Assembly: GCF_001556865.1 (NCBI RefSeq)
Contig: NZ_LSJY01000129.1
Location: 1-29,016, forward strand
Length of the DNA: 29,016 nucleotides
Source: Sphingobium sp. CCH11-B1
GTDB taxonomy: Bacteria > Pseudomonadota > Alphaproteobacteria > Sphingomonadales > Sphingomonadaceae
Reading direction: 5' to 3'
The translations under genes and the position numbers were made by a program. Below the pieces are notes generated by a model. That model saw nothing but the letters and a program-made list of their open reading frames with translations, searched no databases and was not told where the DNA came from. Position 1 is the first letter of the stretch, and each line of letters opens with the position of its first letter. Below, one piece after another: positions 634 through 22,817 of the stretch.

Positions 634-660
634 GGGGCTGCCGAAAGGCGGCCCCTTTTC
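634..660 (+). terminator. Rho-independent terminator after the hydrolase gene
   Basis: A 9-bp stem (GGGGCTGCC with GGCGGCCCC, one G-T wobble) encloses a GAAA tetraloop and is followed by TTTTC. It begins 21 bases after the hydrolase stop codon. The T tract is on the plus strand, so it ends plus-strand transcription just before the convergent histidine-kinase-like gene. Confidence 0.85.
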
Positions 661-2042
661 TATTGGCTGGCGGCAGGCAAGGACAGAATGAAACGCGCGC
701 CTTCGCCCGGCGCGCCGCCGATCAGGATGTCGCCGCCCATCGCCCGGGCAAGGCGACGCGAGATGTAGAGGCCAAGGCCGCTGCCGCCGGCATCGTCGCG
801 GCCCAGCCGCTCGAATTTGTCGAAGATGCGTTCCCGGTCGGCCTGATCGATGCCCGTGCCCTGATCGACGATCGCGATCCGCGCCTGCCCGCTTTCCCAC
901 TCGGTGAAAATGCGGACCTGCGTCCCTTCGGGCGAATAGCGGACGGCGTTGCCCACCAGATTGACGAGGATTTGAAGCACGCGGCGGAACTCGCCCACGG
1001 CGAGCAAAGACGCGTCGAGAGGCGGCGCGACGATGACGATCTGGCGGTCGAGCGCCTTTACCGCCAACAGCCCCGCCGCGCGGCGGCCAAGATCGGCCAG
1101 GTCGATCTCCTCCGACGCCACGCTGAAGTCGGGGCGGTCGATCGCTTGCAGATCGGCAAGATCGTCCACCAGCGCCAGCAGGTGCCGCCCCGCCGCAGCG
1201 ATGTCGCTGGCATAATCGGCATAGTCAGACCGCAACGGCCCTTCCAGCTGCGCACTGATCGTGTCGGCATTCGCGATGATGCGGCCCAATGGCTGGCGCA
1301 GCGAACGATCAAGCCGACGACCGAATTCCGCCGGATAGAGCGTGGGCGGCGCATCCTGCTCCAATGGCGCAGGAAAGGTTCGCTCCATGGGAACTGCGGT
1401 GCCGCGATAACCGGTGAGCTGGCCAGACAGATCGAACGTCGGGAAGGCAGAAAGGATGACAGTCTGCGCCGGATCGGCGGCGATCACTGCCCGCTGGTCG
1501 CGAAAAGGGCGGCGCTGCGCGATCCCGCGCAGCATCGCCATGTCGCCATCTTCATCCGGTTGAAGCTGGAAATAGCTGGAGAAGCGCGCACCAGGCCGGG
1601 GGGGATCGGAAGGCAGATGGTCGCCGTCCGCATGCCCCGCCAGCGCCATCACGAACCGAAGGTGGGTGTCGATCTGCCAGGTCCAGCCTTCCGCCATGGC
1701 GGCGATGTCCGCATCCCTACGGCCCATGTCGCCGGGCATCGCGGATGCCGGCCGTTCGCGCCAATCGATGATGGACAGGGTCACATGCGCGTCGTCCGGG
1801 CGCGCGCGTACCCACATGTCTATGTCGCCGCGCTCTGCGGCTGCGGTCGCGGGCCGCGATATCGTCACGCCCAGCCGGGCGGCAAGCCGCGCGATAGCTG
1901 CCAGTTGCGGCACCGCCAACGGATCGCCCAGCGCAGCCCCGGCTTCGCGCTGCAACGCCACGATCGGCGCGTCGGCGCTCAGCAACCGTCCTTCGGCAGA
2001 CAGCGTGGCACGCAGCACCGTCGAGTGCGGGGGCATGTTCAC
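660..2042 (-). CDS. PAS-PAS histidine-kinase-like protein lacking the phospho-accepting His
   Basis: 460 residues with no clear membrane helix. Residues about 7-98 and 118-220 look like two PAS domains; the second has WTWQID at 120-125 and an LTGYRGT ending. A DHp-like helix starts near 238. The usual H-E-L-R-x-P-L box reads D-R-S-L-R-Q-P-L, with Arg246 (CGT, bases 1305-1307) where the phospho-accepting His is expected. The ATP-binding domain looks complete: N-box with Asn361 and Asn365, G1 box D393-Q-G-T-G, F-box IFDKF at 407-411, and G2 box GGSGLGL at 419-425. The start is a GTG that overlaps the upstream stop as GTGA; an ATG two codons in is the alternative. It is last in a minus-strand group of four. 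It may sense a ligand and signal without accepting phosphate, as Caulobacter DivL does with Tyr. Fold is confident; function is open. Confidence 0.85.
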   Translation of the reverse strand: MNMPPHSTVLRATLSAEGRLLSADAPIVALQREAGAALGDPLAVPQLAAIARLAARLGVTISRPATAAAERGDIDMWVRARPDDAHVTLSIIDWRERPASAMPGDMGRRDADIAAMAEGWTWQIDTHLRFVMALAGHADGDHLPSDPPRPGARFSSYFQLQPDEDGDMAMLRGIAQRRPFRDQRAVIAADPAQTVILSAFPTFDLSGQLTGYRGTAVPMERTFPAPLEQDAPPTLYPAEFGRRLDRSLRQPLGRIIANADTISAQLEGPLRSDYADYASDIAAAGRHLLALVDDLADLQAIDRPDFSVASEEIDLADLGRRAAGLLAVKALDRQIVIVAPPLDASLLAVGEFRRVLQILVNLVGNAVRYSPEGTQVRIFTEWESGQARIAIVDQGTGIDQADRERIFDKFERLGRDDAGGSGLGLYISRRLARAMGGDILIGGAPGEGARFILSLPAASQ

Positions 2043-3127
2043 GCGGGCGAAACTCCGCGCAGATGATCCAGCCGGGTGCGGAAGGCTACAGGCGTACGAA
2101 GCGCCGTGACGGCGGCATCAGCGTCGGACTGGCGCAATCCGGCATAGCGTTCCGCAGCCGCGACGATCGCTGCATCGGTAAGAGAAGGACGCACCGGCCG
2201 CAGCGTGAGAAGAAGGAGGCGGTAGTCGGCGTCGCTCCCGCCCAGGGCACGGCACAGCGCGGCGACCTGCCGAACGGGACCAAGCAGGAGGATGGCGATC
2301 AACTCCGTTGTCGGGAGCCTTAGCCGCCGCGCCGCCAGCGCGCAGAACAGCAGGAACCGCCGCTGATCCAGCGCGATGCCGATCAGGGATGGATCGTCGG
2401 TCGCCTCGCCCAATTGCCGGACCAGCCTGTCCGCCTGCGCGATGGGATTGGCGCCTTCATCATGATCGGCAAGCACTGCCCAGGACGACCGGTCGAACGC
2501 CGCGAAAACCGCGCCCTCATCGTCGGGCGTCGCCCGCTGCACGGCATTGGCCAAACAGGCGGCCACGGTCCAGAGAAGGTCCGCGAACAATTCGGCCGGC
2601 AGGTCGGGTCGGATCGGTTGATCCTCTCCCCCCGGCATCAGCCATCGTCCCTCGGCCAGCGCCAGCGCAGCCACGGCCGCACCCAGATCGGGGTCGGCCG
2701 CCGACGGCAGCCGCTCGTCCGACGCATCTCCCATCTGCTCAAGATCGCCCTGCCCATATTGGCGCAGCATCAGGGCAACTGCGGCGCGCATGCGCATGTG
2801 CGCCATCAGCGGCGGGCTGATCAGGGTTGGCTGCGCCCGCAGGACCGGCCATGCGATGGAGGCGGGCGCTGCGTCGAGGGCGGTCGCAACCGCTGGCGCG
2901 TGGGCCAGCGACAAGCGCAGGGCCATTTCCACCGCCGCGACGCAGCCGCCCAATTGCCTTCGGGTTTCTGTGAGCAGCGCGTCGTGCCGCGCATCATCCT
3001 CTTCCCCGAACATGTAGGCGAGGTCGATGGCATGGCCCACGGGCACGGCGGACGCGCCCGCAAGGACGCGCGCCATGGGCCAGCTGTCGGCCATGATCAT
3101 GCCGGCCAGGGGGGAATGGGCGCTCAT
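2039..3127 (-). CDS. DUF2336-like protein
   Basis: 362 residues from the ATG at 3127 (MSAHSPLAGM). The frame stays open further upstream, but that part overlaps the next gene's 3' end and reads as low-complexity shadow sequence. The protein is Ala/Leu-rich and predicted to be mostly alpha-helical and soluble. Its C-terminal half (ALDQRRFLLFCALAARRL) resembles the alphaproteobacterial DUF2336 family, which has no established function. I recognise it by style rather than by a diagnostic motif, so that label is tentative. Its stop overlaps the GTG of the histidine-kinase-like gene, which argues for coupled translation and a shared role. A CtrA-like site lies 26-40 bases before the start. Confidence 0.6.
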   Translation of the reverse strand: MSAHSPLAGMIMADSWPMARVLAGASAVPVGHAIDLAYMFGEEDDARHDALLTETRRQLGGCVAAVEMALRLSLAHAPAVATALDAAPASIAWPVLRAQPTLISPPLMAHMRMRAAVALMLRQYGQGDLEQMGDASDERLPSAADPDLGAAVAALALAEGRWLMPGGEDQPIRPDLPAELFADLLWTVAACLANAVQRATPDDEGAVFAAFDRSSWAVLADHDEGANPIAQADRLVRQLGEATDDPSLIGIALDQRRFLLFCALAARRLRLPTTELIAILLLGPVRQVAALCRALGGSDADYRLLLLTLRPVRPSLTDAAIVAAAERYAGLRQSDADAAVTALRTPVAFRTRLDHLRGVSPA

Positions 3128-3152
3128 ATCGTCGGACGATATCCGCACGTCC

Positions 3153-3167
3153 TTAACAGGCACTAAA
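3153..3167. promoter_or_regulatory. CtrA-like box, TTAA-N7-TAAA
   Basis: The sequence matches 7 of the 8 fixed bases of the TTAA-N7-TTAA consensus recognised by the alphaproteobacterial cell-cycle regulator CtrA. It lies in the 56-bp gap upstream of the DUF2336-like gene, 26 bases before its ATG. A single near-match in a GC-rich genome is suggestive only. Confidence 0.3.
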
Positions 3168-3183
3168 CCGTGCTGCAGAAATT

Positions 3184-4350
3184 TCAGGCAGAGCGTTTCA
3201 GCACGATCGCGCCGATCGACGCGATGGCCAGCAGCATCGCCGCCCTGATGCCCAGCGCGACAGCCCCGGCCGAGCCAAACAGGACCAGCAGCAGCAGCGC
3301 GCTCGCCGGCGTGAAGATCATCCACGGGCGGAGGCCGCCCGTCTTTCGCCACCGATCGGCCAGCATCACGATGGCGAGGATGAGCGCCAGATCGACGGAC
3401 AGCGGCGTGCCGCCCGCGCGAACGATGCCGATCAGGCCCAGCGTCGGCGCGGCGAAGCCCGTCCAGCTCGAAGGCGGCACGCGCAGCGCCAGGCTGTCCA
3501 GCCGATCGCTGACCTCCGCCAGCAACAGAGCCACCAGCAGAAGGGCAAAGCCGGTCCCTGGCCATTGCAGTTCGATCGGCACCAGCGCGATGGCGGCCAG
3601 GGCGATGGCGGCAATCCGCACCTGAAGCGCCGGCACCTGCATCCGCATCAGCGCGGGGCTGGCCATGCGGGCAAGCGGCGCCAGCAGATAATGGTCGATC
3701 CCGCCCCGTATCTGCCGCGCCGGCGCGCCCGCCGCCATCACGGCGCTTGCCACGAGATCGGCCTGCTGCTGCGTCTCGACGATGGCGACGCGGCCTTCCA
3801 GCAGATCGTCCTGCGGCACGGTGATACGCCGCGCGCCCTTCTGGACGGCGGCACGGATCAGGGTGAGGGCAAGATCCCAGTCACCGATCATGTCGAGCGT
3901 GCCGAACAGCAGCGCCGGACTGATCCGCGCGATTCCAGCCCAGCGTTGCCCCGCATCGATCCGCTCGAACGGCGCGCTGGCGCGGCTGTCGTCGGTCACG
4001 AGCAACGTATCGCCATCCGCGGTGCCCAGCGCATCCACATGGGCCTGCGACACGACTGCGCCATCCGCGATCAGCAGCACGTCGCTGTCGCGCGGCGCAT
4101 CCCGCACCATGGACACCATGTCGCGGATCAGTGCCACGGCGATGCCATCGGCGCTCAGCCGATCGACGGCCTGCGAAAGGGCCGGCGTGATGACGCTGAC
4201 CAGGATCATGATGCGGTCGGCACCGGCCTGCGTCGCCTGTCGGGCCTGATATTCCACCAGCGTCTGCCCGGCGAAATGCAGGCCGGCGCGCAAGGCGCCC
4301 GGCGAATCGCCCGTCGCCCGGTTGGCGCTCAGAATGGCGGCGAAACTCAT
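3184..4350 (-). CDS. Membrane protein: nucleotidyltransferase-like N-terminus plus degenerate CDP-alcohol phosphotransferase-like C-terminus
   Basis: 388 residues from the ATG at 4350 (MSFAAILSANRATG); an in-frame TTG 16 codons upstream at 4398 is possible. No strong ribosome-binding site precedes either. Residues 1-215 follow the plan of a MobA/IPCT-type NTP-transferase (AAILSA near the start, then GLHFAGQTLVEYQARQA), but the nucleotide-binding G-x-G-T-R loop is not recognisable. Residues about 218-388 contain several hydrophobic helices. ...GIDHYLLAPLARMASPALMR leads into LLAEVSDRLDSLALR, where D282-R-L-D285 sits at the place of the CDP-alcohol phosphotransferase D-x2-D-G-x2-A-R motif but lacks its Gly, Arg and later Asp residues. 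The layout recalls the bifunctional IPCT/DIPP synthases of inositol-phosphate metabolism. Loss of key residues suggests a non-catalytic or altered role. It lies between the Hpt-like and DUF2336-like genes. Confidence 0.55.
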   Translation of the reverse strand: MSFAAILSANRATGDSPGALRAGLHFAGQTLVEYQARQATQAGADRIMILVSVITPALSQAVDRLSADGIAVALIRDMVSMVRDAPRDSDVLLIADGAVVSQAHVDALGTADGDTLLVTDDSRASAPFERIDAGQRWAGIARISPALLFGTLDMIGDWDLALTLIRAAVQKGARRITVPQDDLLEGRVAIVETQQQADLVASAVMAAGAPARQIRGGIDHYLLAPLARMASPALMRMQVPALQVRIAAIALAAIALVPIELQWPGTGFALLLVALLLAEVSDRLDSLALRVPPSSWTGFAAPTLGLIGIVRAGGTPLSVDLALILAIVMLADRWRKTGGLRPWMIFTPASALLLLVLFGSAGAVALGIRAAMLLAIASIGAIVLKRSA

Positions 4351-4435
4351 ATCGTTACGCGTGTGGACCCAATCATTGTGTGTCCGCCCTTGTTGCAAGG
4401 CAGCCCGCGCAACGCAAGCGACGCTTTGCGAAGGA

Positions 4436-4738
4436 TCACTCCTGCTCCAACGCCGCCAGCGCAGTGCGCAATTGTCGCAGGACGGCGGGATCGCCGGGTG
4501 CGGCCTGCGCCGCGTCTTCCGCCAGCGCCATCAGCGCCGTCAGTCCGAAGCTCGCCGCCAGCCCCTTGAGCCGCCATGCGGCCAGTTGCCAGTTGGCGTC
4601 GCAACGGGCGCGCCCCAGAAGGTCGATCTGCCGGGCGGCGCTATCCATGAAGGCCGTGCGAAGGTCGGCGATCAGCGCGCTGTCTTCGCCGACGGCGGCC
4701 GCCAATGCGGCATGAAGGGCGCCAGGATCATAGGACAT
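4436..4738 (-). CDS. Hpt-like helical protein without the phospho-His
   Basis: 100 residues, all predicted helical and soluble. The core reads A-A-W-R-L-K-G-L-A-A-S-F-G, which aligns with the Hpt-domain signature A-H-x-L-K-G-x-A-x-x-x-G. Trp55 (TGG, bases 4574-4576) takes the place of the phospho-accepting His; the rest of the signature (Leu57, Lys58, Gly59, Gly65) is kept. Length suits a stand-alone Hpt module. It is the first gene of the minus-strand group ending in a histidine-kinase-like protein that also lacks its His. Its ATG is 79 bases from the divergent start of the long coiled-coil gene. Family call is moderately sure; it should not be able to relay phosphate through this position. 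Confidence 0.65.
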   Translation of the reverse strand: MSYDPGALHAALAAAVGEDSALIADLRTAFMDSAARQIDLLGRARCDANWQLAAWRLKGLAASFGLTALMALAEDAAQAAPGDPAVLRQLRTALAALEQE

Positions 4739-4817
4739 GGCGGCAGACGCTATCGGGCGTACGTTAAGTTTTGGTAACAGGCATTTCCGACGGCGGAAAA
4801 GATGCTAGGATGCGGAT
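4739..4817. promoter_or_regulatory. Divergent promoter region, Hpt-like gene / coiled-coil gene
   Basis: These 79 bp separate two divergent starts, so promoters for both genes should lie here or just inside them. I see no convincing -35/-10 pair. TTAA-N6-GTAAC at 4764-4778 resembles a CtrA box with one base too few in the spacer. AGGA at 4807-4810 is a well-placed ribosome-binding site for the ATG at 4818. Confidence 0.45.
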
Positions 4818-7493
4818 ATGACAGGGGGAAGCACCATAGTGGAATTCTGGCGCGACAATCAGGGCGCTGCCGGACGGGAAGCGCAAGCCGACGATACGCT
4901 GCTGTTGCAGCAGGTGGCTTCGGACATGGACGAGGACGCCGATGTCCTGCCGGGTGGCGCGGACCGGACCGCGCGCCGGTTGCGATGGGGCCTCGGCCTT
5001 CTGGCCGCCGGCTGGACGGGCTTTGCCATATGGGCGACGATCACCTCCGGGGGCCTGGCGGCAGGCCCTTCCGCCTGGGTTCAGGCAATCGTGACGATCA
5101 CGGTTCCGTTGATCCTGATTGGCGTCGCCTATCTCCTGCTGATCCGCAGCAGCCGCACCGAATCGCGCCGCTATCTCGACACCGCCCGCGCATTGCGCAT
5201 GGAGGCGGATGTGTTGGAACTGCGTCTGGCGCGCATCACATCCCAACTCGATGCGGCGCGCCAGACCATGCAGGACCAGGCTCAACTGCTCGACAGCTAC
5301 GGCGCGGCGGCCAGCAGCAACATGGAAGCATCGGCCGAACTGATCGCGGCGCGATCGCACAGCACGGCGGAACGCGCCGAAGCGGCCGAACGCGCCGGCC
5401 TGGCGTTGGTCGAGCGGATGGACATGCTGATCGGCACGATGCCGGAACTGGAGGAGCGGGCCAGCCGCATGGCGGCGCAGATCATGGACAATGGCCATGC
5501 GCTCGCCGAGCGGATCGACATGCTCGAAGCCCGGCTGCACAATCTCAACGAAGTGTCCGACGAAGCCCGCGCCCGCACCCTGGCCGCCACCAAGAGCCTG
5601 TCGAGTCAGTTGACCCAGGTTCAGGAAGCGACCCATGCCGCGACGCGGGAGGTCACGGGGATGGCGGACATCGCCGTCGGACGCATCGAAGCGACAGCCC
5701 GCAGCGCGCAATCCGCCATCAGCGAAAGCCGGGCGGAGCTGGATGCCCAGTCGGACCGGCTCGGCACGCTGGTCGAAGCCGCGCAGAGGGGCGTGACGGT
5801 GACCAGCGAGCAGGTTCGCGCGCGCTTGACCGAAGACCTGGACGTGATCGATCGCGACCTCAATCGCCGCGTAGACACGGTGCTTGACCGGGTCCGCGGC
5901 ATGTTCGCCGCGACCGACGACGGCATTGCCCGCCGGGCAGAGGCCTTGCAGACGCTGGTGGCGGGCGCGCAGTCCGGCATCGGATCGACGAGCGAGGAAG
6001 CGATGGCCGCGCTCAGCCGTGACATGGACGCGATCGACAGCGACCTGCGGCAGCGGCTGGATGCGGTGCTGGAACGCGCGCAGGATGCCCTTGCCGCCAC
6101 CGACGCAGGGCTGACCGGTCAGGCCGCCGCGCTGGACGACCTGATCGCCCGGTCACGGTCCAGCCTCGATTCGATCGGCCGCGACACGGTCGTTGGCCTC
6201 AGCGATGCCGTCGCCGACGTCGAAGGCCGATTGCACCAGATCAACGACATGGTCGAAGGACAACGTAGTCTGATGGCCGGCATCCATGCCGGGCTGCAGG
6301 AGACGATCGCCTCGACCGAAGGACGCTTCGCGGCTCTTGAAGACGGCGCCTTGGCGCGCGGCGAGCGGCTGACCGCTGCACTCATGCGCCTGACCGAGGA
6401 AACGCAGCGTATAGACGACGCGCTGGCGGCGGGAGGCATGACCGCCGAAAGGCTGATCAGCAGCGCCGAAACCTTGTTGGTCGCCCTCGATTCCGGCGTG
6501 CGCGAGCTGGACGAAACCTATCCCGCCGCGCTGGGGCGGTTCGACAGCCGGGTCGAGGCGAGCCGTGCGCTTCTGGGCAGCGCCACGCCGGAGATGGAAC
6601 GGCTGGAAGCGATTTCCGAGGCGCTGGTTGGGCGCGCGGAAGAAGCCGAATCACTGCTCCGCGGACAGGGCAGCCGCCTCACCGAATGGCTGGAAAGCAC
6701 GCAGGGCGGGCTTCAGGCCAACCGCGAACTGGTCGATCGTCTGCGCACCGCCCTGGATGCCGCGGACCAGGATGCGCGCCGCATCACCGACGGCGCCGGG
6801 CCGCTGCTGGTAACGGCGCTGTTGCGGGTAAAGGATACCGCCGATCAGGCGGCGGAGCGCGCGCGCCAGGCACTGGCACGGGCCATCCCCGACGCGGCCC
6901 AGCAATTGGCGGAGGCAAGCGACGACGCGCTGCAAAGCGTGATCGGGGAAAAGGTGACGGCGCAGATTGAACAGGTGGCGCGCGTCGCGGACGACGCGGT
7001 CAAGGCGGCGCATCAGGCATCCGAACGGCTGACCCGTCAGTTGCTGACCATCGCGGACACCAGCGCCGCGCTGGAGCAACGCATCGCCGAGGCGGGCCAG
7101 GCGGCGGAGGATCGCGATCGCGATCACTTCTCCCGCCGGTCGGCGCTGTTGATCGAATCGCTCAACAGCACGGCGATCGATGTAGCCAAGATCCTGTCCA
7201 ACGATGTGACCGATTCGGCCTGGTCAGCCTATCTGAAGGGGGACCGGGGCGTGTTCACGCGTCGCGCGGTCAAACTGCTGGATGCAGGCGAATCGCGGGA
7301 GATCGCGCTTCACTACGATAATGACGCCGAGTTCCGCGACCATGTGAACCGCTACATCCACGATTTCGAATCCATGCTTCGGATCATTCTGTCGGCGCGG
7401 GACGGCAACGCGCTGGGCGTCGCCATCCTCTCGTCTGACATGGGCAAGCTCTATGTCGCCCTGGCGCAGGCGATCGAGCGGCTGCGGCAGTGA
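4818..7493 (+). CDS. Large membrane-anchored coiled-coil protein (TipN-like layout)
   Basis: 891 residues from an ATG preceded by AGGA at 7-base spacing. A short acidic N-terminal stretch is followed by two membrane helices (about 57-76 and 88-109). About 650 residues of Ala/Glu/Arg/Asp-rich helical coiled coil come next, then a distinct C-terminal segment (about 770-891). Two gap-free 62-residue tandem repeats lie at residues 315-376 and 377-438, 30 of 62 positions identical. There is no HAMP or methyl-accepting signalling domain and no peptidase or ATPase motif. Size and layout match the Caulobacter polarity landmark TipN, which is about 890 residues with two N-terminal membrane helices and a long coiled coil. 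I cannot show homology from the sequence alone. It is divergent from the Hpt-like/histidine-kinase-like group. A structural or scaffolding role at the inner membrane is likely. Confidence 0.7.
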   Translation: MTGGSTIVEFWRDNQGAAGREAQADDTLLLQQVASDMDEDADVLPGGADRTARRLRWGLGLLAAGWTGFAIWATITSGGLAAGPSAWVQAIVTITVPLILIGVAYLLLIRSSRTESRRYLDTARALRMEADVLELRLARITSQLDAARQTMQDQAQLLDSYGAAASSNMEASAELIAARSHSTAERAEAAERAGLALVERMDMLIGTMPELEERASRMAAQIMDNGHALAERIDMLEARLHNLNEVSDEARARTLAATKSLSSQLTQVQEATHAATREVTGMADIAVGRIEATARSAQSAISESRAELDAQSDRLGTLVEAAQRGVTVTSEQVRARLTEDLDVIDRDLNRRVDTVLDRVRGMFAATDDGIARRAEALQTLVAGAQSGIGSTSEEAMAALSRDMDAIDSDLRQRLDAVLERAQDALAATDAGLTGQAAALDDLIARSRSSLDSIGRDTVVGLSDAVADVEGRLHQINDMVEGQRSLMAGIHAGLQETIASTEGRFAALEDGALARGERLTAALMRLTEETQRIDDALAAGGMTAERLISSAETLLVALDSGVRELDETYPAALGRFDSRVEASRALLGSATPEMERLEAISEALVGRAEEAESLLRGQGSRLTEWLESTQGGLQANRELVDRLRTALDAADQDARRITDGAGPLLVTALLRVKDTADQAAERARQALARAIPDAAQQLAEASDDALQSVIGEKVTAQIEQVARVADDAVKAAHQASERLTRQLLTIADTSAALEQRIAEAGQAAEDRDRDHFSRRSALLIESLNSTAIDVAKILSNDVTDSAWSAYLKGDRGVFTRRAVKLLDAGESREIALHYDNDAEFRDHVNRYIHDFESMLRIILSARDGNALGVAILSSDMGKLYVALAQAIERLRQ

Positions 7494-8303: not shown

Positions 8304-9941
8304 TTAGGCGCGGATGAGCAGCACGTCCACCACAGGCTTCTTGCCGGTCCATCGGGTCGCGGTTCGGCGCACGGCCAGGCGAATTCGTTCCCGCAGCGCC
8401 TCTTCCTCCTGCGATCCCTTCGACAGGACGGAGGTGGCTTCGTCCGCTGCTTCCGCGAGGAAGGCAAGCTTGTCCTCCTCCACCGGCACGCCCTGCGTAC
8501 GCAGGACGGGATCGCCGATCAGCTTCCCCTTGCGATCCAGCGCCACAGCGACGCTGATCTGCCCATGCAGCGCGACCTTGCGCCGTTCGTTCATCGTGGA
8601 CCCATCGGCGGGCAGGATAACGTCGCCGTCCAGCACCAGGCGGCCCGTTTCCTGTTGGCCGATGATCTGCGGCGCGCCGGGCGCGAGCCGGAGCAGATCG
8701 CCGTTCGACTGCACGACCGCATAGGCGATGCCGCTGGCGATGCCAAGCCGGGCCTGCTCCGCCATATGGCGACGCTCGCCATGGACGGGGAGCAGGATCG
8801 CGGGCCGTATCCAGCGATACATGGCTTCCAGTTCGGGCCGGCCCGGATGCCCGGACACATGAACCTCTGCCTGCCGGTCGGTGACCATCAGGATGTTCTT
8901 TTCGGCCAGGGCGTTCTGGATGCGGCCGATCGCGATCTCGTTGCCCGGAATCTGCTTGGAGGAAAAGACGACCATGTCGCCTTCGCTGAGCTTGATCGGA
9001 TGACTGTCGAAAGCAACGCGAGCGAGCGCCGCGCGCGCTTCGCCCTGACCGCCGGTGGCGATGATCATCACCTCGTTCCGGGGCAACGCCATGGCGTCAT
9101 CCCAGTCGACGAGCGGCGGGAAATCCTTCAAATACCCCGCGGCCTTCGCCGTTCCGATGATCCGGTCCAGCGAACGGCCGGCGACGCAGAGCTTGCGGCC
9201 GGTCGCCGCGGCGACCTCACCCAGCGTCTGCACACGCGCTGCGTTGGACGCAAAGGTGGTGACGAGCACCCGGCCCTTCGCGCCGGCGATGGTCTGCATC
9301 AACCCTTCCCGCACGTCGCTTTCGGACCCGCTGGCCTCGGGATTGAAGACGTTGGTGCTGTCGCACACCAGCGCCAGCACGCCTTCGTCGCCGATCGCGG
9401 CGAGTTCCTGCGGGGTCGAAGGCTGGCCAAGCAGCGGCTGTTCGTCCAGCTTCCAGTCACCGGTATGGAAGACGCGGCCATAGGGCGTTTCGATCAGCAC
9501 GGCATTGCCCTCGGGTATCGAGTGGGCCAGCGGCACATAGCGGAAGCCGAAGGGACCAAGCGCGAAGCTGCCCTCATTATCGATGACGTGCAGTTCGACC
9601 TCGTTGGTCAGCCCCTCTTCCTCCAATTTGAGCCGGATGAGCCCGGCCGTGAAGGGCGTGGCATAGAGCGGCACGCCAAGATCGGCCGCAAGATAGGGGA
9701 TCGCACCGATATGGTCCTCATGCCCGTGCGTCAGCACGATGCCGAGCAGGTCGTCGCGTCGATCCTCGATAAAGGAAAGGTCGGGCAGCACCAGCTCCAC
9801 GCCGGGATAGGCAGGATCGGCGAAGGTCAGGCCCAGGTCGACCATGACCCATTTGCCCTGACAGCCATAGAGATTCACGTTCATGCCAATCTCTCCCGAC
9901 CCGCCAAGGGCCAGGAAGAGCAGCTCGTTTCCGGGTGTCAT
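8304..9941 (-). CDS. rnj: Ribonuclease J
   Basis: 545 residues from the ATG at 9941, which overlaps the coaX stop as ATGA. The metallo-beta-lactamase core has the zinc motif H72-x-H74-x-D76-H77, with further ligands expected at His140 and Asp162 (FHTGDW). The beta-CASP region carries [17 protein letters not shown] and [10 protein letters not shown], and a C-terminal dimerisation-type domain follows. Length and motifs match bacterial RNase J, a cytoplasmic exo/endoribonuclease acting in mRNA decay and rRNA maturation. Alphaproteobacteria often have this enzyme alongside RNase E. It is translated with coaX and is followed at 10 bases by the DUF1467 gene. Confidence 0.95.
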
Positions 9942-10720
9942 TCTGTTTTCAAACTCCGTTCGTGCAGCAGCGCCAGTCCCTGAATGGTGAGGTCTGGCGC
10001 GATCGCATCGAAGATATCGCTGTTGTCGTTGAAGAGGACCGCAAGGCCCCCGGTTGAAACCACCCGTGCCGGGCGGCCGATTTCGGCGCGCATTCGCGCC
10101 ACCAATCCTTCCATCATGGCCACATAGCCCCAGAAAACGCCGATATGCATCTGCGATTCCGTGTTGCGACCGATCACCGATTTGCTTTCCGGCGGGGCGA
10201 TCGCGATCTTCGGCAGCTTCGCGGCCGCAGCGACCAGCGCGTCGAGCGACAGGTTGATGCCCGGCGCTATGATCCCGCCCTTGTACGCGCCCGTGTAATC
10301 GACCACGTCGAATGTCGTCGCCGTGCCGAAATCGATCACGATCAGGTCGCCCTGGTAAAGATGGTGGGCAGCTATGACGTTTACAACCCGGTCCGCGCCC
10401 ACGGAGGCGGGTTCCGCCACATCCAGTTCGATGCCCCATTCCACCGGTGCCTGCCCGGCGACCAGCGCCTTCGTACGGAAATATTTGTCGGCCAGCACCT
10501 GAAGATTATGAAGCGCGCGCGGCACGACGGTAGCGATGATGACTGCTGTCACATCGCCGATGGCATAGCCCTCCAGCATCAGCAGCTGGTTCAGCCAGAC
10601 CGCATATTCGTCCGCGGTGCGGCGCGGATCGGTGGCAATCCGCCAGCGCGCGCGGATGTTCTGCCCGTCGAGCAGCGCAAACACCACATTGGTGTTGCCA
10701 GCGTCAATCGCGAGAAGCAT
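9938..10720 (-). CDS. coaX: Type III pantothenate kinase
   Basis: 260 residues from the ATG at 10720, chosen over the ATG at 10744 because AAGGA precedes it at good spacing and the family begins at the phosphate-binding motif. D6-A-G-N-T is at the N-terminus, followed by GADR at 108-111, DFGTATTFD from 130, and GGIIAPG. These are the hallmarks of CoaX. It phosphorylates pantothenate, the first step of coenzyme A synthesis, in the cytoplasm, and this type usually needs a monovalent cation and is not inhibited by CoA. It lies between birA and rnj, a common alphaproteobacterial order downstream of nuo. Confidence 0.95.
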
Positions 10721-10744
10721 GGCTGCGTTTCCTTCGCTACACAT

Positions 10745-10818
10745 CCGTTCGCTTCGAGCGAAGTCGAGAAGCGGCCAGCACGGCGCCGATGTTGTTCGAC
10801 CTCACTCCAAACGAACGG
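10745..10818. repeat. Imperfect palindromic repeat between birA and coaX
   Basis: Ends are CCGTTCG (10745-10751) and CGAACGG (10812-10818). Inside, the left arm (TTCGAGCGAAGTCGAGAA) and the reverse complement of the right arm agree at about two thirds of positions, so the 74 bases could fold into one long hairpin. The TTCGAGCGAAGTCGA core is a type of short dispersed palindrome I recall from sphingomonad intergenic DNA. It fills most of the 117-bp gap inside the operon. Confidence 0.65.
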
Positions 10819-10837
10819 CGAAATTCCATCCCGCCCA

Positions 10838-11587
10838 TCATGGCAGATGGACGTCGCCGGCGTGAATGGCACGGCTCTCCCCATTCGCCAAGCGAAGGAT
10901 CAGCATGCCTTGCCGATCAAGCGTATCGAACGCGCCCTCCACAACCTCGCCATCGGGCAGGGCAACACGCATCGGCGTGCCCGGAGGATGGGCATTGAGC
11001 AGCCAATGGGTCCGCACCGGGTCGAGCCCCTGCGCCCGCCAGATGCCGAGCCAATGGGCGAAGAGGGCCGACAGGCGCTCGAGCAAGGCCCCCGCCTCCA
11101 GGTCGCCTGCACCCTGTGCCGCCAGGCTGGTGACCGGACGGTCGAGGCCGGTCGGATGGCCGGTCACATTGATGCCAATGCCGATCACGATCGCGTCGCC
11201 CACGCGCTCCAGCAAGATGCCGGCGATCTTCGCTCCGTCGACCAATATGTCGTTGGGCCACTTGATCTTGGCGTTTCCCGGCCCGCCGCCCGCTTGTCCC
11301 CCTACAGACGCGGAAGGACCGCCCGTGCCGCATAAGGGCGCAACCAGCGCATGGACAGCATTCGCTGCGACCAGCGCCAGCGTATGGGGTACGGGATCAT
11401 GCGGTCCCACCCGCACCAGCGTGGAGCAATAAAGATTGCCATCGGGGCTTTCCCATGACCGCCCCATGCGCCCCCTGCCCCCGGTCTGGCGGCCGGCGCG
11501 CAGCCACATACCCTCGGCCGCGCCCTGCTCCGCCAGCGCCAGCATGTCGGCGTTGGTGGAACCGGTTTCCTCGACGTACTGGATCAA
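10838..11587 (-). CDS. birA: Biotin--[acetyl-CoA-carboxylase] ligase
   Basis: About 249 residues, beginning with a TTG at 11587 that lies 3 bases past the nuoN stop; no better start is visible. The ligase core is complete: ETGSTN near the start, the biotinyl-AMP loop G-R-G-R-M-G-R-S-W at 38-45, KWPNDI at 109-114, and GIGINV. It activates biotin with ATP and attaches it to the carboxylase carrier protein. There is no N-terminal helix-turn-helix, so it is a monofunctional enzyme rather than a BirA repressor. Residues about 86-105 are a Gly-rich stretch with no counterpart in the compact family core. Position after nuoN suggests co-transcription with complex I. Confidence 0.93.
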   Translation of the reverse strand: MIQYVEETGSTNADMLALAEQGAAEGMWLRAGRQTGGRGRMGRSWESPDGNLYCSTLVRVGPHDPVPHTLALVAANAVHALVAPLCGTGGPSASVGGQAGGGPGNAKIKWPNDILVDGAKIAGILLERVGDAIVIGIGINVTGHPTGLDRPVTSLAAQGAGDLEAGALLERLSALFAHWLGIWRAQGLDPVRTHWLLNAHPPGTPMRVALPDGEVVEGAFDTLDRQGMLILRLANGESRAIHAGDVHLP

Positions 11588-11589
11588 GC

Positions 11590-13026
11590 TCAGAACAGCG
11601 CCGCCGCCGCCGCCGCGCTCGCCGCATCCAGCACAGGGTTCAGCAGATAGCCGAACACGATCACCACGGCGCAGGTCGTCAGGATGATATTCTCGACCGC
11701 CCCGCCCTTCGCTTCATAGGCGGCGGCCGGTTCGTCGAAATAGATCGTCTTGATGATCTTGAGATAATAGAAAGCGCCGATCACCGAGGCTGCGATACCA
11801 AAGGCGGCGAGCGCGGTGAGGTTTGCGGCCACCGCAGCGTCGAACACCAGGAACTTCGCCCAGAAGCCGAAGAGCGGCGGGATGCCGGCCATGGAGAACA
11901 TGAAGATGGCGAAGGCGGCGGCCAGGCCCTTGCGCGACTGCGACAGGCCGGACAGGCTGGCGATGCTTTCGACCGGGCGCCCTTCGGCATCGCGCATCTG
12001 AAGGATGCAGGCAAAGCCGCCGATGGTCATGACGACATAGATCGCCATATAGCTCATCGTCGCCGCGACGCCGGCGGGCGTGCCGCAGGCGAGGCCGATC
12101 AGCGCGAAGCCGACATTGTTGATCGACGAATAGGCCATCAGACGCTTGATGTTCGTCTGGCCGATGGCGGCCACCGCGCCCAGGATGATGGAGGCCAGCG
12201 CCACGAAGATCACGATCTGCTGCCAGTCGAGTCCGGCCGGTCCCAGCGCCTCGATCGCGACGCGGACGGCAAGGCCCATGGCGGCAACCTTGGGCGCGCT
12301 GCCGAAGAAGGTGGTGACGGGCGTCGGCGCGCCTTCATAAACGTCGGGCGTCCACATGTGGAACGGCACGGCGCTCATCTTGAAGGCGAGGCCGGCGAGC
12401 AGGAACACCATGCCGAACAGTTCGCCGTTCGACACGCCATCGCCCATCGCGACCGCGATGCCATCGAACGCCGTGGTGCCGGTGAAGCCATAGAGCAGCG
12501 CCGACCCATAGAGCAGGATGCCGCTCGCCAGCGAACCCAGCACGAAATATTTGAGGCCCGCTTCGGACGAGCGCCCGTCCTGCCGCATGAAGCTCGCCAG
12601 CACATAGGCGGCAAGGCTCTGCATTTCGAGGCCGACGTAGAGGGTCAGCAGATCGCCCGCCGACACCATCATGCCCATGCCGATGCTGCTGAACAGGATC
12701 AGTACCGGATATTCGGGCCGTTCCTTGCCATCGCTCTGGAAGAAACGCGGCGCGAGCAGGATCGCCGCAGCGGCCGCACCGTAGATCAGCGCCTTGGCGA
12801 AGGCCGAGAAGGCGTCGGCCCGGACGAGGCCGTCAAAGGCATCGGGGCCGTTCGCCACCGATGTCGAGATGGAAACGCCGGCAACAGCCAGCGTCACGAC
12901 TGACAGCCAGTTGACGACGCGCGCGCTGCCGTCGCCGCCAAAGGCCGCGACCAGCATCAGCACCAGGCCCCCTGCCGTCAGGATGAGTTCCGGCAGGACC
13001 GCCAGAAGGGAAGCGGAATCGACCAT
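11590..13026 (-). CDS. nuoN: NADH-quinone oxidoreductase subunit N
   Basis: 478 residues, about 14 membrane helices, the antiporter-like (Mrp-type) fold of complex I. The core has KMSAVPFHMWTPDVYEGAP and the helix-7/8 motif IKRLMAYSSINNVGF, with the lysines expected for proton transfer. It is one of three homologous pump subunits (L, M, N) in the inner membrane. The ATG shares its A with the nuoM stop (TGATG). It is the last nuo gene; birA follows almost without a gap. Confidence 0.97.
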   Translation of the reverse strand: MVDSASLLAVLPELILTAGGLVLMLVAAFGGDGSARVVNWLSVVTLAVAGVSISTSVANGPDAFDGLVRADAFSAFAKALIYGAAAAAILLAPRFFQSDGKERPEYPVLILFSSIGMGMMVSAGDLLTLYVGLEMQSLAAYVLASFMRQDGRSSEAGLKYFVLGSLASGILLYGSALLYGFTGTTAFDGIAVAMGDGVSNGELFGMVFLLAGLAFKMSAVPFHMWTPDVYEGAPTPVTTFFGSAPKVAAMGLAVRVAIEALGPAGLDWQQIVIFVALASIILGAVAAIGQTNIKRLMAYSSINNVGFALIGLACGTPAGVAATMSYMAIYVVMTIGGFACILQMRDAEGRPVESIASLSGLSQSRKGLAAAFAIFMFSMAGIPPLFGFWAKFLVFDAAVAANLTALAAFGIAASVIGAFYYLKIIKTIYFDEPAAAYEAKGGAVENIILTTCAVVIVFGYLLNPVLDAASAAAAAALF

Positions 13027-14573
13027 CAGTGCGCCTCCCCGTGCGCGGATACTTCTTCATGATGGGTCTCGCCGGCCGGCTTGGCCGCCCCCATCTTGAT
13101 GTGAGAATCGCCTGCGGGCGCCGCAGGAGCGAGCCGCGCTTCGAGCGCGCGGATGTCGGCGCGCATCGGCGCCAGGAAGCTCTCCGGATAGACGCCCATC
13201 CACAGCACCGCCGCCGCGATCGGCACGAGCAGCGCCAGTTCGCGGGCCGACAGGTCGGGCATGGCCGCCGCATCCGCATTCACCTGCTCGCCATAGGCGA
13301 TGCGGCGATAGAGGTAGAGCATATAGGCCGCGCCCAGGATGATGCCCGTGGTGCAGACCAAGGCCACCCAGCTCGACGCCTGGTAGATGCCCATCAGCGA
13401 CAGGAATTCGCCTACGAAGTTGGATGTGCCCGGAAGTCCCACCGACGCCATGGTGAACAGCAGGAACAGCACCGCATATTTGGGCATGTTGATGCTGAGG
13501 CCGCCATAACGGCTGATCTCACGCGTGTGCAGGCGATCGTAGATGACACCCACGCACAGGAAGAGCGCGCCAGACACCAGGCCGTGGCCCAGCATCACCA
13601 TCATCGCGCCCTCGATCCCCGCCTGGTTGAAGGCGAACAGGCCCACGGTCACGATCGCCATATGCGCCACCGACGAGTAGGCGATCAGCTTCTTCATGTC
13701 GCTCTGCACCAGCGCGACGAGGCTGGTATAGACCACCGCCACCATCGACAGCCCCCAGACCAGCCATGCCAGCTGGGCGGACGCTTCGGGGAACATCGGC
13801 AGCGAAAAGCGGATGAAGCCATAGCCGCCCATCTTGAGCAACACGCCCGCCAGGATGACCGAACCCGCGGTCGGCGCCTGGACGTGCGCGTCGGGCAGCC
13901 ACGTGTGGACCGGCCACATCGGCATCTTGACCGCGAAGCTCGCGAAGAAAGCGAGGAACAGCCAGGTCTGGACATGCGGATCGAAATTATAGGCCATCAG
14001 GGCCGGGATTTCGGTCGTGCCCGCCTCATGCACCATCCACATCATCGCGATCAGCATCAGCACGGAGCCGAGCAGCGTGTAGAGGAAGAATTTGTAGCTG
14101 GCGTAGATGCGGTCCGCACCGCCCCAGATGCCGATGATGAGATACATCGGGATGAGGCCGGCTTCGAACATCACATAGAAGAGGTAGAGGTCCTGCGCCG
14201 CGAAGACGCCGATCATCAGCACCTCCATAAACAGGAATGCCGCCATATATTCGCCGACGCGCTTCTGAATGGCTTCCCAGCTCGCGCCGATGCAGATCGG
14301 CATCAGGAACACAGTGAGCGCGATCAGCATCAGCGCGATGCCATCGATCCCAAGCGCCCAGGCAAAGCGGCCGAAGATCGGATAATATTCCTGATACTGC
14401 CACTGGAGTCCGCCCTGGTCGAAATTCGCCCAGAGAAGGATGCCCAGCACCAGATCGACCAGCGTGGCGATCAGCGCGATCCAGCGCGCGGCATTGGCGC
14501 CCGCGAAGAGACAGGCGATGGCCCCCGCCATCGGCACTGCCATCATCAGGGAAAGGATGGGGAAGCCGTCCAT
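13026..14573 (-). CDS. nuoM: NADH-quinone oxidoreductase subunit M
   Basis: 515 residues with about 14 membrane helices. Signature stretches include KMPMWPVHTWLPDAHVQAP, KKLIAYSSVAHM and GLPGTSNFVGEFL, typical of the middle antiporter-like subunit that pumps protons. The extra His-bearing C-terminal tail (about residues 485-515, HHEEVSAHGEAH at the end) is hydrophilic. The start ATG overlaps the nuoL stop as TAATG, and its stop overlaps the nuoN start. Confidence 0.97.
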   Translation of the reverse strand: MDGFPILSLMMAVPMAGAIACLFAGANAARWIALIATLVDLVLGILLWANFDQGGLQWQYQEYYPIFGRFAWALGIDGIALMLIALTVFLMPICIGASWEAIQKRVGEYMAAFLFMEVLMIGVFAAQDLYLFYVMFEAGLIPMYLIIGIWGGADRIYASYKFFLYTLLGSVLMLIAMMWMVHEAGTTEIPALMAYNFDPHVQTWLFLAFFASFAVKMPMWPVHTWLPDAHVQAPTAGSVILAGVLLKMGGYGFIRFSLPMFPEASAQLAWLVWGLSMVAVVYTSLVALVQSDMKKLIAYSSVAHMAIVTVGLFAFNQAGIEGAMMVMLGHGLVSGALFLCVGVIYDRLHTREISRYGGLSINMPKYAVLFLLFTMASVGLPGTSNFVGEFLSLMGIYQASSWVALVCTTGIILGAAYMLYLYRRIAYGEQVNADAAAMPDLSARELALLVPIAAAVLWMGVYPESFLAPMRADIRALEARLAPAAPAGDSHIKMGAAKPAGETHHEEVSAHGEAH

Positions 14574-16672
14574 TATCGTGTCATCGCCCAGGTTGCGGCC
14601 GCGGCGAGGCCAATCAGCATCACCAGCGCGTAGGTGTAGAGGTAGCCGGACTGGATCCGACGGGTGATCTTGTTGCCCTGCACGACCAGCGCGGCGAGCC
14701 CGTTGGGGCCGAAGCGGTCGATGAAGCCGATGTCACCGAACTTCCAGAAGAAGCGGCCGATGGCGAAGGCGGGCTTCACGAACAGGACGTTGTAGAGCTC
14801 GTCGAAATACCATTTGTTGAGCAGGAACTGGTAGAGCGCGCCGAACTGCGAAACGAAGCGCTGCGGCCAGTCCGTGTTCTTGATGTAGGCCAGCCACGCG
14901 ATCGCCAGGCCTATGAGCATCACCGTGAACGGCCCGAACTTGACCCAGGTCGGCACCTCGTGCGCCGCGTGCATCAGGTGGCTGTCGAATGCGAGTGCCC
15001 CCTTCCAGAACTCGACGCCGCCTTCCGGCCCGATGAACTGATCGTGGAACAGGAAGCCGGCGAACACCGCGCCCAGGCTGAGCACCACGAGCGGCACCAG
15101 CATGACCCATGGGCTTTCGTGCGGATGATATCCGCCGGTGCCGGTGGGCAGCGCGTGCGCATCCGCCTCGGCCCCGTGCGGATCATGGCCCGCATCTTCC
15201 TGCGCCGGGGCATTGTCATGCTCCGATCCGTGGCCGTGCGTCGCGTGATCGTCATGCCCGTGGCCGTGCGCGTCGTGAAGCGAATGCTGGATATGCTCCG
15301 ACGCGGCCCAGCGCGGCTTGCCGAAGAAGGTGAGGAACACCAGCCGCCAGCTGTAGAAGCTGGTAAGCAGAGCCGCGAAGACGCCGACATAATAGGCGCC
15401 CACGCCCGAACCGCCCGACGCGAAGGCCGCTTCCAGAATGCCGTCCTTCGAATAGAAGCCGGCAAAGCCATAGCCGATGAGCGGCAGGCCGACGCCGGTG
15501 ATGGCGAGCGTACCCAGCGTCATCGTCCAGAAGGTGATCGGGATCTCTTTCCTGAGGCCGCCATAATAGCGCATGTCCTGCTCATGGTGCATCGCGTGGA
15601 TGACCGAACCCGCGCCCAGGAACAGCAAAGCCTTGAAGAAGGCGTGGGTGAAAAGGTGGAACATCGCCGCGCCATAGGCGCCGACACCCGCCGCGAAGAA
15701 CATGTAGCCGAGCTGCGAACAGGTCGAATAGGCGATGACGCGCTTGATGTCGTTCTGCACCGTGCCCACCGTCGCCGCGAACAGGCAGGTGGCTGCGCCG
15801 ATGAAGGTCACGAAGCCAAGCGCCGTCGGCGACGTTTCGAACATGGGCGACAGGCGGCACACCATGAACACGCCCGCCGTCACCATGGTCGCCGCGTGGA
15901 TCAGCGCAGACACGGGCGTCGGGCCTTCCATCGCGTCGGGAAGCCAGGTGTGCAGGCCAAGCTGCGCCGATTTGCCCATCGCGCCGATGAACAGCAGCAG
16001 GCAGAGCACGGTCATCGTGTCGAAACGATGGCCAAGGAAACCGATGGTCGACCCCGCCATGGAAGGCGCGGCGGCCAGGATGTCGGGGATCGAGATGGTG
16101 TTGAACACCAGATAGGTGCCGAAAATGCCCATCATGAAACCGAGGTCGCCGACGCGGTTGACCACGAACGCCTTGATCGCGGCGGCATTGGCGCTGGGCT
16201 TGCGGAACCAGAAGCCGATCAGAAGATAGGAAGCAAGGCCCACCCCTTCCCAGCCGAAGAACATCTGCAGCAGGTTGTTCGCCGTTACCAGCATCAGCAT
16301 CGCGAAGGTGAAGAGCGAGAGATAGGCAAAGAAGCGCGGCTGATCCGGCTCCTCTTCCATATAGCCCCAGCTGTACAGATGGACGAGGCTGGAAACGCTG
16401 GTGATGACCACCAGCATGACCGCCGTCATCGTGTCGACGCGCAGCGCCCATTGGGCATTGAAGCTGCCGCTTTCGATCCAGGTGAACAGCGGCTGGACAT
16501 AGGCTTCGCTATGGCCGGTGAGGAAACCGATGAAGATCGGCCAGCTCATGGCGCAGCTCGCGAAGAGCGCGCCGGTGGTGACGATCTTCGCCGGCAGCTT
16601 GCCAAGGGCCTTGTTGCCAAGCCCGGCAATGGCCGCGGCCAGCAGCGGAAGAAGGACGATAAGCTGGATCAT
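14573..16672 (-). CDS. nuoL: NADH-quinone oxidoreductase subunit L
   Basis: 699 residues, larger than the roughly 610 of E. coli NuoL. The antiporter-like core has [30 protein letters not shown] and [16 protein letters not shown]. The C-terminal part should supply the long lateral helix that runs along the membrane arm. A His/Asp-rich hydrophilic loop with 15 His lies at residues 460-518, between membrane helices, and accounts for part of the extra length. It forms the distal proton pump of complex I. nuoK lies 8 bases upstream. Confidence 0.97.
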
Positions 16673-16680
16673 GAAACGGC

Positions 16681-16986
16681 TCAGCCCTTCATCTGATTGA
16701 TGTCGTCGACGGCGATGGTGCCGCGACCGCGGAAGTAGATGACGAGGATGGCAAGGCCGATGGCCGCCTCACCCGCCGCGACGGTCAGCACGAACATGCT
16801 GAACACCTGTCCCACCAGGTCGCCCAGGAACGCGCTGAAGGCCACGAGGTTGATGTTCACGCTCAGCAGGATCAGTTCGATCGCCATCAGGATGATGATG
16901 ACATTCTTGCGGTTGATGAAGATGCCCAGCACCCCCATCACGAAGAGGATCGCGCTGACCACCATATAATGCTGAAGGCCGATCAC
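16681..16986 (-). CDS. nuoK: NADH-quinone oxidoreductase subunit K
   Basis: 101 residues with three membrane helices. The buried glutamates used in proton transfer are visible in [11 protein letters not shown] and [11 protein letters not shown]. The start is GTG at 16986, overlapping the nuoJ stop as GTGA; the long open frame upstream is only a shadow of nuoJ. Length is typical for the family. Confidence 0.96.
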
Positions 16987-17594
16987 AGCTCTACCCCCTG
17001 CCCCACGGGCTGATTGACGTTGCGCACGGCGTCCTGCGGGCGGCGGCGGTTCTGTTTCGCGATATTCTGGCCCCGCACCCCGCCGCGTGCGCGATGGGTC
17101 AGCACGATCGCACCGATCATCGCGACGAGCAGAACGATGCCGGCCGCCTCGAACAGGAAGATGTAGCGGGTGTAGAGCAGCCCGCCGATCGCCTGGATGT
17201 TGCTGAGTTCCGGGTTGGCCGGAGCGGCACGCTGCGCCAGCTCGATGGGACCGGCGCTCCACAGGCCAATGCCCAGCACGATCTCCGCCAGCAACACCAG
17301 CGCGATCAGCAGGCCGAAGGGCAGATAGTCGACGAAGCCGGCGCGCAGTTCGGCGAAATCGATGTCGAGCATCATGACGACGAACAGGAACAGCACCGCG
17401 ACCGCGCCGACATAGACGATGACCAGAAGCATCGCGATGAACTCGGCGCCCAGCAGCACCATCAGGCCCGCCGCGTTGAAGAAGGCCAGGATCAGCCAGA
17501 GCACCGAATGGACCGGATTGCGCGACAGGATCGTCAGCGCGCCGCTGCACACCACCAAGGTGGCGAACAGATAGAAGGCAAGCACGTGAATCAC
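16983..17594 (-). CDS. nuoJ: NADH-quinone oxidoreductase subunit J
   Basis: 203 residues, five membrane helices, with the conserved [18 protein letters not shown] and [18 protein letters not shown] stretches; the latter region forms the pi-bulge helix that connects quinone chemistry to pumping. A basic, hydrophilic C-terminal tail of about 35 residues ends the protein. The start is GTG at 17594 ([10 protein letters not shown]); AAGGGGA lies upstream, and a three-codon ATG-ATC-CTG-TGA reading frame sits between it and the GTG. The stop overlaps nuoK. Confidence 0.95.
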
Positions 17595-17623
17595 AGGATC
17601 ATATTCCCCTTGGCGCGCGCGGC

Positions 17624-18109
17624 TTAACGATAGGGTGCATCAGCGGCAAGGTTCGCGGCGATCGCGCGCTCCCATTTGTCGCCATTTTCAAGAAGCTTGG
17701 CCTTGTCGTAGATCAGCTCCTCGCGGGTTTCGGTCGAAAATTCGAAATTCGGCCCTTCCACGACCGCGTCCACCGGGCAGGCTTCCTGGCAGAAACCGCA
17801 ATAGATGCACTTGGTCATGTCGATGTCGTAGCGCGTGGTGCGGCGGCTGCCGTCCTCGCGCGGCTGCGCCTCGATCGTGATCGCCTGCGCTGGGCAGATC
17901 GCCTCGCACAGCTTGCACGCGATGCAGCGTTCCTCGCCGTTGGGATAGCGACGCAACGCATGCTCGCCCCGGAAGCGCGGGCTGATCGGGTTCTTCTCAT
18001 AGGGATAGTTGATCGTCGCCTTGGGCTTGAAAAAATATTTCAAGGTCAGCCAGTGCGCCTTCACGAACTCCCAGAGGGTGAAGCTTTTGACGTAGTAACC
18101 GAGGCTCAT
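17624..18109 (-). CDS. nuoI: NADH-quinone oxidoreductase subunit I (2x 4Fe-4S)
   Basis: 161 residues. Two ferredoxin motifs bind clusters N6a and N6b: C62-x2-C65-x2-C68-x3-C72 and C101-x2-C104-x2-C107-x3-C111. Each cluster's fourth ligand is the Cys preceding Pro in the other motif, as in other 8Fe ferredoxins. It passes electrons from NuoG toward NuoB. The N-terminal amphipathic helix ([19 protein letters not shown]) rests on the membrane. The ATG overlaps the nuoH stop as ATGA. Length and motifs are standard. Confidence 0.97.
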
Positions 18110-21158: not shown

Positions 21159-21159
21159 A

Positions 21160-22724: not shown

Positions 22725-22741
22725 GCGCGACCTCCCAGATA

Positions 22742-22817
22742 CGTCATGCCAGCGAAGGCTGGCATCTCAGGCGCATGCGCGCTGAGGATGGAGATCCCAG
22801 CTTTCGCTGGGGTGACG
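22742..22817. repeat. 76-bp palindromic dispersed repeat between nuoE and nuoF
   Basis: The arms CGTCATGCCAGCGAAGGCTG... and ...CAGCTTTCGCTGGGGTGACG match at about 23 of 27 positions as inverted copies, and the centre holds a second short pair, CTCAG/CTGAG. One frame reads PAKAGI...EIPAFAGVT, a peptide pattern I associate with abundant short palindromes in proteobacterial genomes. It fills most of the 106-bp gap inside the operon and would form a stable mRNA hairpin. Confidence 0.8.

Follow-up and report, generated by a model that had tools for sequence, protein, structure and literature searches.

What can a signalling locus do when its histidine kinase and its Hpt protein have both lost the phospho-acceptor histidine? 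This question is raised by five neighbouring genes of Sphingobium sp. CCH11-B1, found in a stretch of 29,016 bp with a GC content of 64.7% (the window, meaning the whole stretch analysed). A kinase-like protein, a DUF2336-family protein, a membrane protein and an Hpt-like protein are encoded on the minus strand, and a long coiled-coil protein, a member of the TipN family, diverges from them on the plus strand. The initial annotation had placed the five genes at these positions and in these orientations, which was confirmed, and had taken them for one non-canonical signalling or polarity module. Our comparisons suggest that in the sphingomonads a functional signalling relay has become a polarity module without catalysis. 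The evolutionary account is well supported; the mechanism is what we infer.

In the kinase-like protein Arg246 (codon at about 1305-1307) is found in place of the phospho-acceptor His and Ser247 in place of its acidic neighbour. The Pfam match to HATPase_c is strong (1.4e-25) and that to HisKA is sub-threshold (25.5 vs. 26.9 bits). No transmembrane segment was found by a hydropathy scan, and the structure model is of low to moderate confidence, with a mean predicted local distance difference test value (pLDDT) of 61.5. Arg occupies the acceptor position in all 25 Sphingobium-type loci that have the genes; the set holds 26 loci, one of which (L025) is a fragment only. The comparison was then widened to Sphingomonadaceae-type loci, a class defined by the score of the C-terminal profile of the coiled-coil protein (at least 220 bits for the Hpt counts, at least 229 bits for synteny) and not by checked taxonomy. 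His was present at the acceptor position in 0/73 kinases, the residues being Arg (36), Pro (21), Gly (6), Glu (3), Gln (2) and Val, Thr, Asp, Ser and Ala once each, with no Tyr. These 73 rows score at least 200 bits, include the window, represent 59 distinct segments and contain one genome twice (L002/L059); where a His occurred within eight positions, in three rows, it lay at the ends of the stretch, off the acceptor position. The acidic residue following the acceptor position (H+1) is absent from all 71 kinases compared. The N, G1, F and G2 boxes of the ATP domain are present, and N361, N365, D393, G395, G397, F407, G420, G422 and G424 are each invariant (71/71). The Arg at H+3 was kept in 70/73 rows, and the dimerisation-helix motif LR.P..RIIANA is mostly retained. 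In one locus, L090 of genome G087, the pseudo-kinase is split into frames of 80 and 361 amino acids, with one TGA inside the profile match, possibly a sequencing error or a recent loss.

The Hpt-like protein narrowly passes the Pfam Hpt cut-off (26.0 vs. 24.6 bits), and Trp55 (codon at about 4574-4576) stands where the acceptor His is expected. Trp was found there in 25/25 Sphingobium-type loci, and His in 0/58 Sphingomonadaceae-type proteins (Trp 30, Leu 13, Met 10, Gly 2, and Ala, Thr and Arg once each). The His of the H.LKG motif was likewise missing in all 50 members of an earlier, overlapping set that included the window. Loci without a divergent Hpt by profile, 18/76 of the Sphingomonadaceae type and 37/59 of the others, are outside the His counts. 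Two profiles were used, one seeded with the His-containing motif and the other with His-less proteins, and the counts would overlook any His-less Hpt outside the group that escapes both. Both substitutions, Arg for His in the kinase and Trp for His in the Hpt, had been noticed in the initial annotation, and they hold well beyond the window. Both acceptor losses are genuine, ancient and conserved.

Of the 59 loci with a TipN-like gene outside the Sphingomonadaceae, 22 have an Hpt on the divergent side no further than 2.7 kb away, and all 22 keep the His; 20 Caulobacteraceae loci belong to neither Hpt group, as the profile used did not reach them. Canonical Hpts occur in 12/20 of the loci L230-L249. 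In some loci another frame separates the divergent canonical Hpt from the TipN-like gene, a small one of about 90-125 amino acids in L233, L235 and L143 and a larger one in L128 and L129. The small frame encodes a conserved protein with the motif EPGGKLPLFD..G..I...TIRSC...GW..PW. In L233 and L235 a receiver protein and another Hpt-like protein (23.7 bits, cut-off 24.6) come next in the row. An Hpt-like protein of this second kind, carrying HDMKGQGGTFGYPL or a motif close to it, was detected by pattern about 0.7-2.4 kb upstream of the TipN-like gene in 17/20 of L230-L249, and it adjoins the receiver protein in all three loci inspected (L233, L235, L241).

The closest full-length relatives found for the window kinase are those of L250, L251, L255 and L256 (208-306 bits), which have the canonical MSHELRTPLNAI and keep the His in four of four. 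A DUF2336 gene is located directly upstream of each of them, as recognised by Pfam in L250 and L251 and by our own profile in the others. The pairs in L250 and L251 come just after flgK-/flgL-type genes and that in L255 follows a flagellin-family gene at the contig start; no flagellar neighbour was found for the L256 pair. The kinase tree places the pseudo-kinases in a single clade (98/100) with a long stem; the tree has few outgroup rows, one of them duplicating L251, and its bootstrap is not settled. Both His are kept in genome G057, where the two genes lie in separate places (L224, L250) and the TipN-domain score is intermediate (144 bits); we read it as the ancestral state. Orthologues with both His, which the initial annotation had named as evidence against its module, occur only outside the family, G057 being an example. 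The canonical relatives in like positions and the retention of both His in G057 are consistent with a loss of both acceptors on one stem.

The kinases of L252-L254 (about 80 bits) are different ones. Their N-terminal 95-130 residues match the DUF2336-protein profile (33-43 bits, in a three-sequence search); Pfam DUF2336 is not reported on them. They may represent a fusion that links DUF2336 to kinases. Their HisKA domain is good and has the His, and no Pfam HATPase match was obtained at E 1, which makes them the mirror image of the window pseudo-kinase, with the acceptor kept and the ATP domain degenerate.

The TipN comparison made in the initial annotation is supported by profiles of the C-terminal domain of the coiled-coil protein (about the last 115 residues). 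Of 289 alphaproteobacterial genomes 100 have this domain at E 1e-5, in a single place in 98 of the 100. In the family taken as Caulobacteraceae 31/40 genomes match it at E 1 and 29 at E 1e-3 or better, the match being in frames of 606-1203 amino acids for 27 of the 29. One of the proteins, that of L194 (885 amino acids), groups with entries named 'polar localization protein TipN' and is 92% identical to one from Caulobacter segnis. The family profile A2 matched the TipN alignment A5 with a probability of 97.7% (E 2.1e-12), and the Sphingomonadales-only profile A1 with 84.9% (E 6.5e-6). The window protein and a single TipN share 28% identity over 81 amino acids at both C-termini (E 0.003, two-sequence comparison). 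A TipN-only hidden Markov model built on the last 150 residues gave no match to the window protein with hmmsearch, so that the broader profiles, together with the weak pairwise match, are what connects the two; a sequence search of the PDB with the coiled-coil protein returned nothing at E 0.1. Judged by these alignments, the window protein is a distant relative of TipN and a member of its family, which brings the Sphingomonadaceae among the organisms with a TipN-family protein. In both proteins the homologous domain stands at the C-terminal end, and both are coiled-coil membrane proteins of similar length (882 amino acids in TipN, 891 here).

TipN has two N-terminal transmembrane segments followed by a long coiled coil. 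The window protein had been described as a two-helix, 891-residue coiled-coil protein divergent from the other genes; its length and divergence are borne out, but one clear transmembrane segment (91-109, Kyte-Doolittle) was detected and the second, weaker hydrophobic stretch stayed under the threshold. The body is rich in Ala, Leu, Arg and Glu, and residues 640-891 share 99% identity with a protein named Sphingobium olei. The protein of L129 was considered as a TipN and rejected: it has the right size, but its named relatives are from Parvibaculum or are other hypotheticals.

The membrane protein, in which eroded enzyme motifs had been suspected, could be identified as an eroded nucleotidyltransferase/CDP-alcohol phosphotransferase. 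The helical membrane fold of the CDP-alcohol phosphotransferase family is present, but in contrast to IPCT-DIPPS and CDP-alcohol phosphotransferases (4mnd, AF2299) the catalytic motif is missing in 73/74 members. D..DG..AR occurs only in L100 (genome G109), and there none of the other locus genes was found next to the membrane protein. The AlphaFold model contains no usable N-terminal domain, the pLDDT being mostly below 50 up to residue 213.

The DUF2336 protein of the window scores narrowly below the PF10098 cut-off (31.2 vs. 34.6 bits), and its relative in L027 reaches 34.9 bits with its neighbours in the frame. Because its gene overlaps that of the kinase and the pairing is conserved, we infer that it is a partner of the pseudo-kinase, and the family would thereby gain a proposed partner; no papers on DUF2336 were found, most subscription journals being outside the search. 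Two Sphingobium loci, L014 and L021 (genomes G003 and G004), have no DUF2336 gene and keep the pseudo-kinase, the membrane protein and the pseudo-Hpt; no PF10098 match was obtained in these genomes at E 0.001.

How could such proteins work? Most likely the locus provides a phosphate-free regulator or scaffold of the DivL kind, which would link a response regulator to the TipN-type landmark. One report describes DivL as a kinase core that has been converted to sense a phosphorylated response regulator, and its R553, the counterpart of the H+3 Arg, as required for DivK binding (PMC4211667). TipN is described as a new-pole scaffold of Caulobacter for organelle placement that acts with ParA (PMC7083601, PMC10127582). 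In the proposed mechanism the phosphate-carrying roles would be lost and the docking surfaces would remain, with no phosphoryl transfer through the locus proteins. The soluble pseudo-kinase, with its intact ATP pocket and the Arg in its DHp domain, might sense or sequester a response regulator or pair with another kinase, DUF2336 serving as its partner. The pseudo-Hpt would bind a receiver domain as a dead-end adaptor, and the membrane pseudo-enzyme and the TipN-like landmark would hold them at the membrane or the new pole. The likely output would be control of polarity, of the polar flagellum or of a CtrA-type cell-cycle pathway; a link to polar flagella would fit the flagellar hook-type genes beside three of the four outgroup DUF2336-kinase pairs. 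That the phosphate-free proteins of the locus form a docking and landmark polarity module, arisen from the loss of both His on one stem, is held with moderate confidence. A broader version is put forward only tentatively: a whole phosphorelay branch and a lipid-headgroup-type enzyme would have lost their chemistry in one ancestor, been gathered beside the TipN gene and become a purely structural or sensory polarity module, able to read or hold response regulators with no phosphoryl transfer at all.

Several observations weigh against a phosphate-free module. The outgroup kinase sample is small (four, from seven loci among the high-scoring rows). No partner response regulator is encoded within the five-gene locus, and the other four genes were not found near tipN in the 20 Caulobacteraceae loci, where the count leaves out weak hits of 23 and 13 bits (frames of 304 and 319 amino acids) and a generic kinase hit of 51 bits. 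The DUF2336 gene is absent in 2/25 Sphingobium-type loci and, near the membrane protein, in 9/49 wider loci. The pseudo-Hpt adjoins the TipN-like gene in at least 58 of 76 loci, a lower bound, as L075 and L105 at least have a pseudo-Hpt and L025 is cut off. The TipN-like and membrane-protein genes are apart in 14/60 genomes. Finally, an ATP site so strictly conserved might indicate that the protein still catalyses a reaction on some other target.

Following this last point, the kinase-like protein could still be an enzyme, whose ATPase domain phosphorylates in trans the His of another kinase or a product of the locus. The nine invariant ATP-site positions speak for this, in contrast to DivL, which binds ATP weakly (PMC4211667). 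However, the acidic residue beside the His is lost in every one of the 71 kinases and the LR.P..RIIANA motif is largely kept, as expected of a docking surface, and we consider such an enzyme rather improbable.

The five genes may also be neighbours by operon inertia only, the TipN-like gene and the pseudo-Hpt forming one unit and the membrane protein, DUF2336 and the pseudo-kinase another, unrelated one. The single-sequence survey (50 of 147 genomes, loci from 49 of the 50 used, G018 being dropped) misses diverged members and was superseded by profiles. A high-scoring TipN-like gene is present in 61 of the 147 genomes sampled from the order, and 60 of the 61 have the membrane protein; the comparison refers to the best 61 rows of two profile searches (at least 96 and at least 229 bits), weaker enzyme-like rows being excluded. 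In 46 of the 60 no more than 2.7 kb separates the membrane protein from the C-terminal-domain match, with the two genes divergent throughout. In the 14 split genomes the pseudo-Hpt adjoins the TipN-like gene in 11 (L130, L210-L215, L217, L220-L222) and the membrane protein in none, while the pseudo-kinase stays by the membrane protein in 13. Two sub-blocks emerge, TipN-like gene with pseudo-Hpt and membrane protein (with DUF2336) with pseudo-kinase, each of which tends to stay whole, as the inertia explanation would have it. Genome G133 has all the locus genes except the membrane protein. The adjacency in 46 of 60 genomes, the constant divergent arrangement and the near-complete co-occurrence argue against unrelated units, as does the fact that kinase and Hpt are both without His in the same group and both with His in G057; mere inertia is regarded as unlikely. 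The one-module claim of the initial annotation stands in so far as the group is conserved across Sphingomonadaceae-type genomes, and has to be relaxed since the group can be broken.

It is very unlikely that the kinase-like protein is simply the sphingomonad DivL. The two are alike in having a histidine kinase core without the phospho-acceptor His and in keeping the Arg that contacts the response regulator. However, DivL came ninth of 33 by sequence, behind chains such as 7z8n (GacS) and 6qrj (ShkA), and the acceptor position of the window family is Arg, Pro, Gly, Glu, Gln or a singleton and never Tyr. The window kinase further differs in its full ATP site, the lack of a detected transmembrane segment and its lineage, its canonical relatives being DUF2336-linked kinases with His. 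RetS is of a different lineage and domain make-up. The plant pseudo-HPt proteins of the AHP6 type, an Hpt fold without His, act as inhibitors in the cytokinin pathway, and differ from the window protein in that pathway and in having no known link to a polarity landmark. The window family differs from TipN in being flanked by the pseudo-Hpt and the other genes, none of which was found at the 20 Caulobacteraceae loci. No paper describing the locus was found by title or abstract (TipN/Sphingomonas, pseudokinase/Sphingomonadales, polarity; most subscription journals outside the search). A pseudokinase and a landmark are each known, and pseudokinases such as DivL are known singly; here several proteins appear stripped of catalytic residues in one lineage, next to a TipN-family gene, and the combination with a pseudo-Hpt and a pseudo-phosphotransferase was not found described. 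Sister families still have the active forms, which makes this change from a relay to a non-catalytic module directly testable.

All five genes are under purifying selection. Across five close pairs of related loci, none including the window, with uncurated frame starts, the kinase gene has a ratio of nonsynonymous to synonymous substitution rates (dN/dS) of 0.03-0.14; the values are 0.09-0.18 in DUF2336, 0.03-0.17 in the membrane protein, 0.01-0.11 in the Hpt and 0.06-0.11 in the coiled-coil gene. A decaying relic of drifting, inactive proteins, which the loss of three different active sites and the lost or broken genes of some lineages might suggest, is hardly credible against these values, the long frames and the ATP site invariant across the group.

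Table 1. Coordinates of the locus features in the window and of related features in other loci.
Feature	Position	Strand	Remarks
Histidine-kinase-like gene, pseudo-histidine kinase	660..2042	-	460 amino acids; two PAS-like regions, DHp, HATPase
DUF2336-family protein gene	2039..3127	-	362 amino acids; 4-bp overlap with kinase start
Membrane pseudo-enzyme gene	3184..4350	-	388 amino acids; eroded nucleotidyltransferase domain and CDP-alcohol phosphotransferase fold
Pseudo-Hpt gene	4436..4738	-	100 amino acids; W55 at acceptor position, LKG retained
16-bp element GTTAAGTTTTGGTAAC	4763..4778	+	identical in 26/26 aligned Sphingobium-type intergenic regions, window included
TipN-family coiled-coil membrane protein gene	4818..7493	+	891 amino acids; divergent from minus-strand group
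C-terminal domain of coiled-coil protein	7125..7490	+	about residues 770-891; common to TipN and other alphaproteobacterial coiled-coil proteins
Small conserved protein, relative to TipN-like start	L233 -414..-40; L235 -418..-155; L143 -503..-198
L252-L254 kinases	L252:5789-7561; L253:6934-8685; L254:3164-4900

The genes are separated by 56 bp (DUF2336/membrane protein), 85 bp (membrane protein/Hpt) and 79 bp (the divergent Hpt/coiled-coil region). The last gap contains a 16-bp element, an imperfect dyad GTTA-N8-TAAC, whose exact sequence occurs only once in each of four genomes searched and which is perhaps a locus-specific operator. A regulon for it was looked for and rejected, the one other match having two mismatches and a backwards control also giving one match. 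A CtrA site was rejected as well, TTAA-N7-TTAA being present in the divergent promoter of none of the Sphingobium-type loci L001-L026. It occurred in 4/76 Sphingomonadaceae-type upstream regions, 0/59 others and 0.35% of random 340-bp windows, and with one mismatch in 18/76 and 11/59 vs. 2.4% of random windows, this background being mostly coding DNA.

Judged by eye from the translations, positions 8304-25570 of the window are ordinary: they carry a nuo (complex I) cluster on the minus strand and, after it, BirA-like, CoaX-like and RNase J-like genes.
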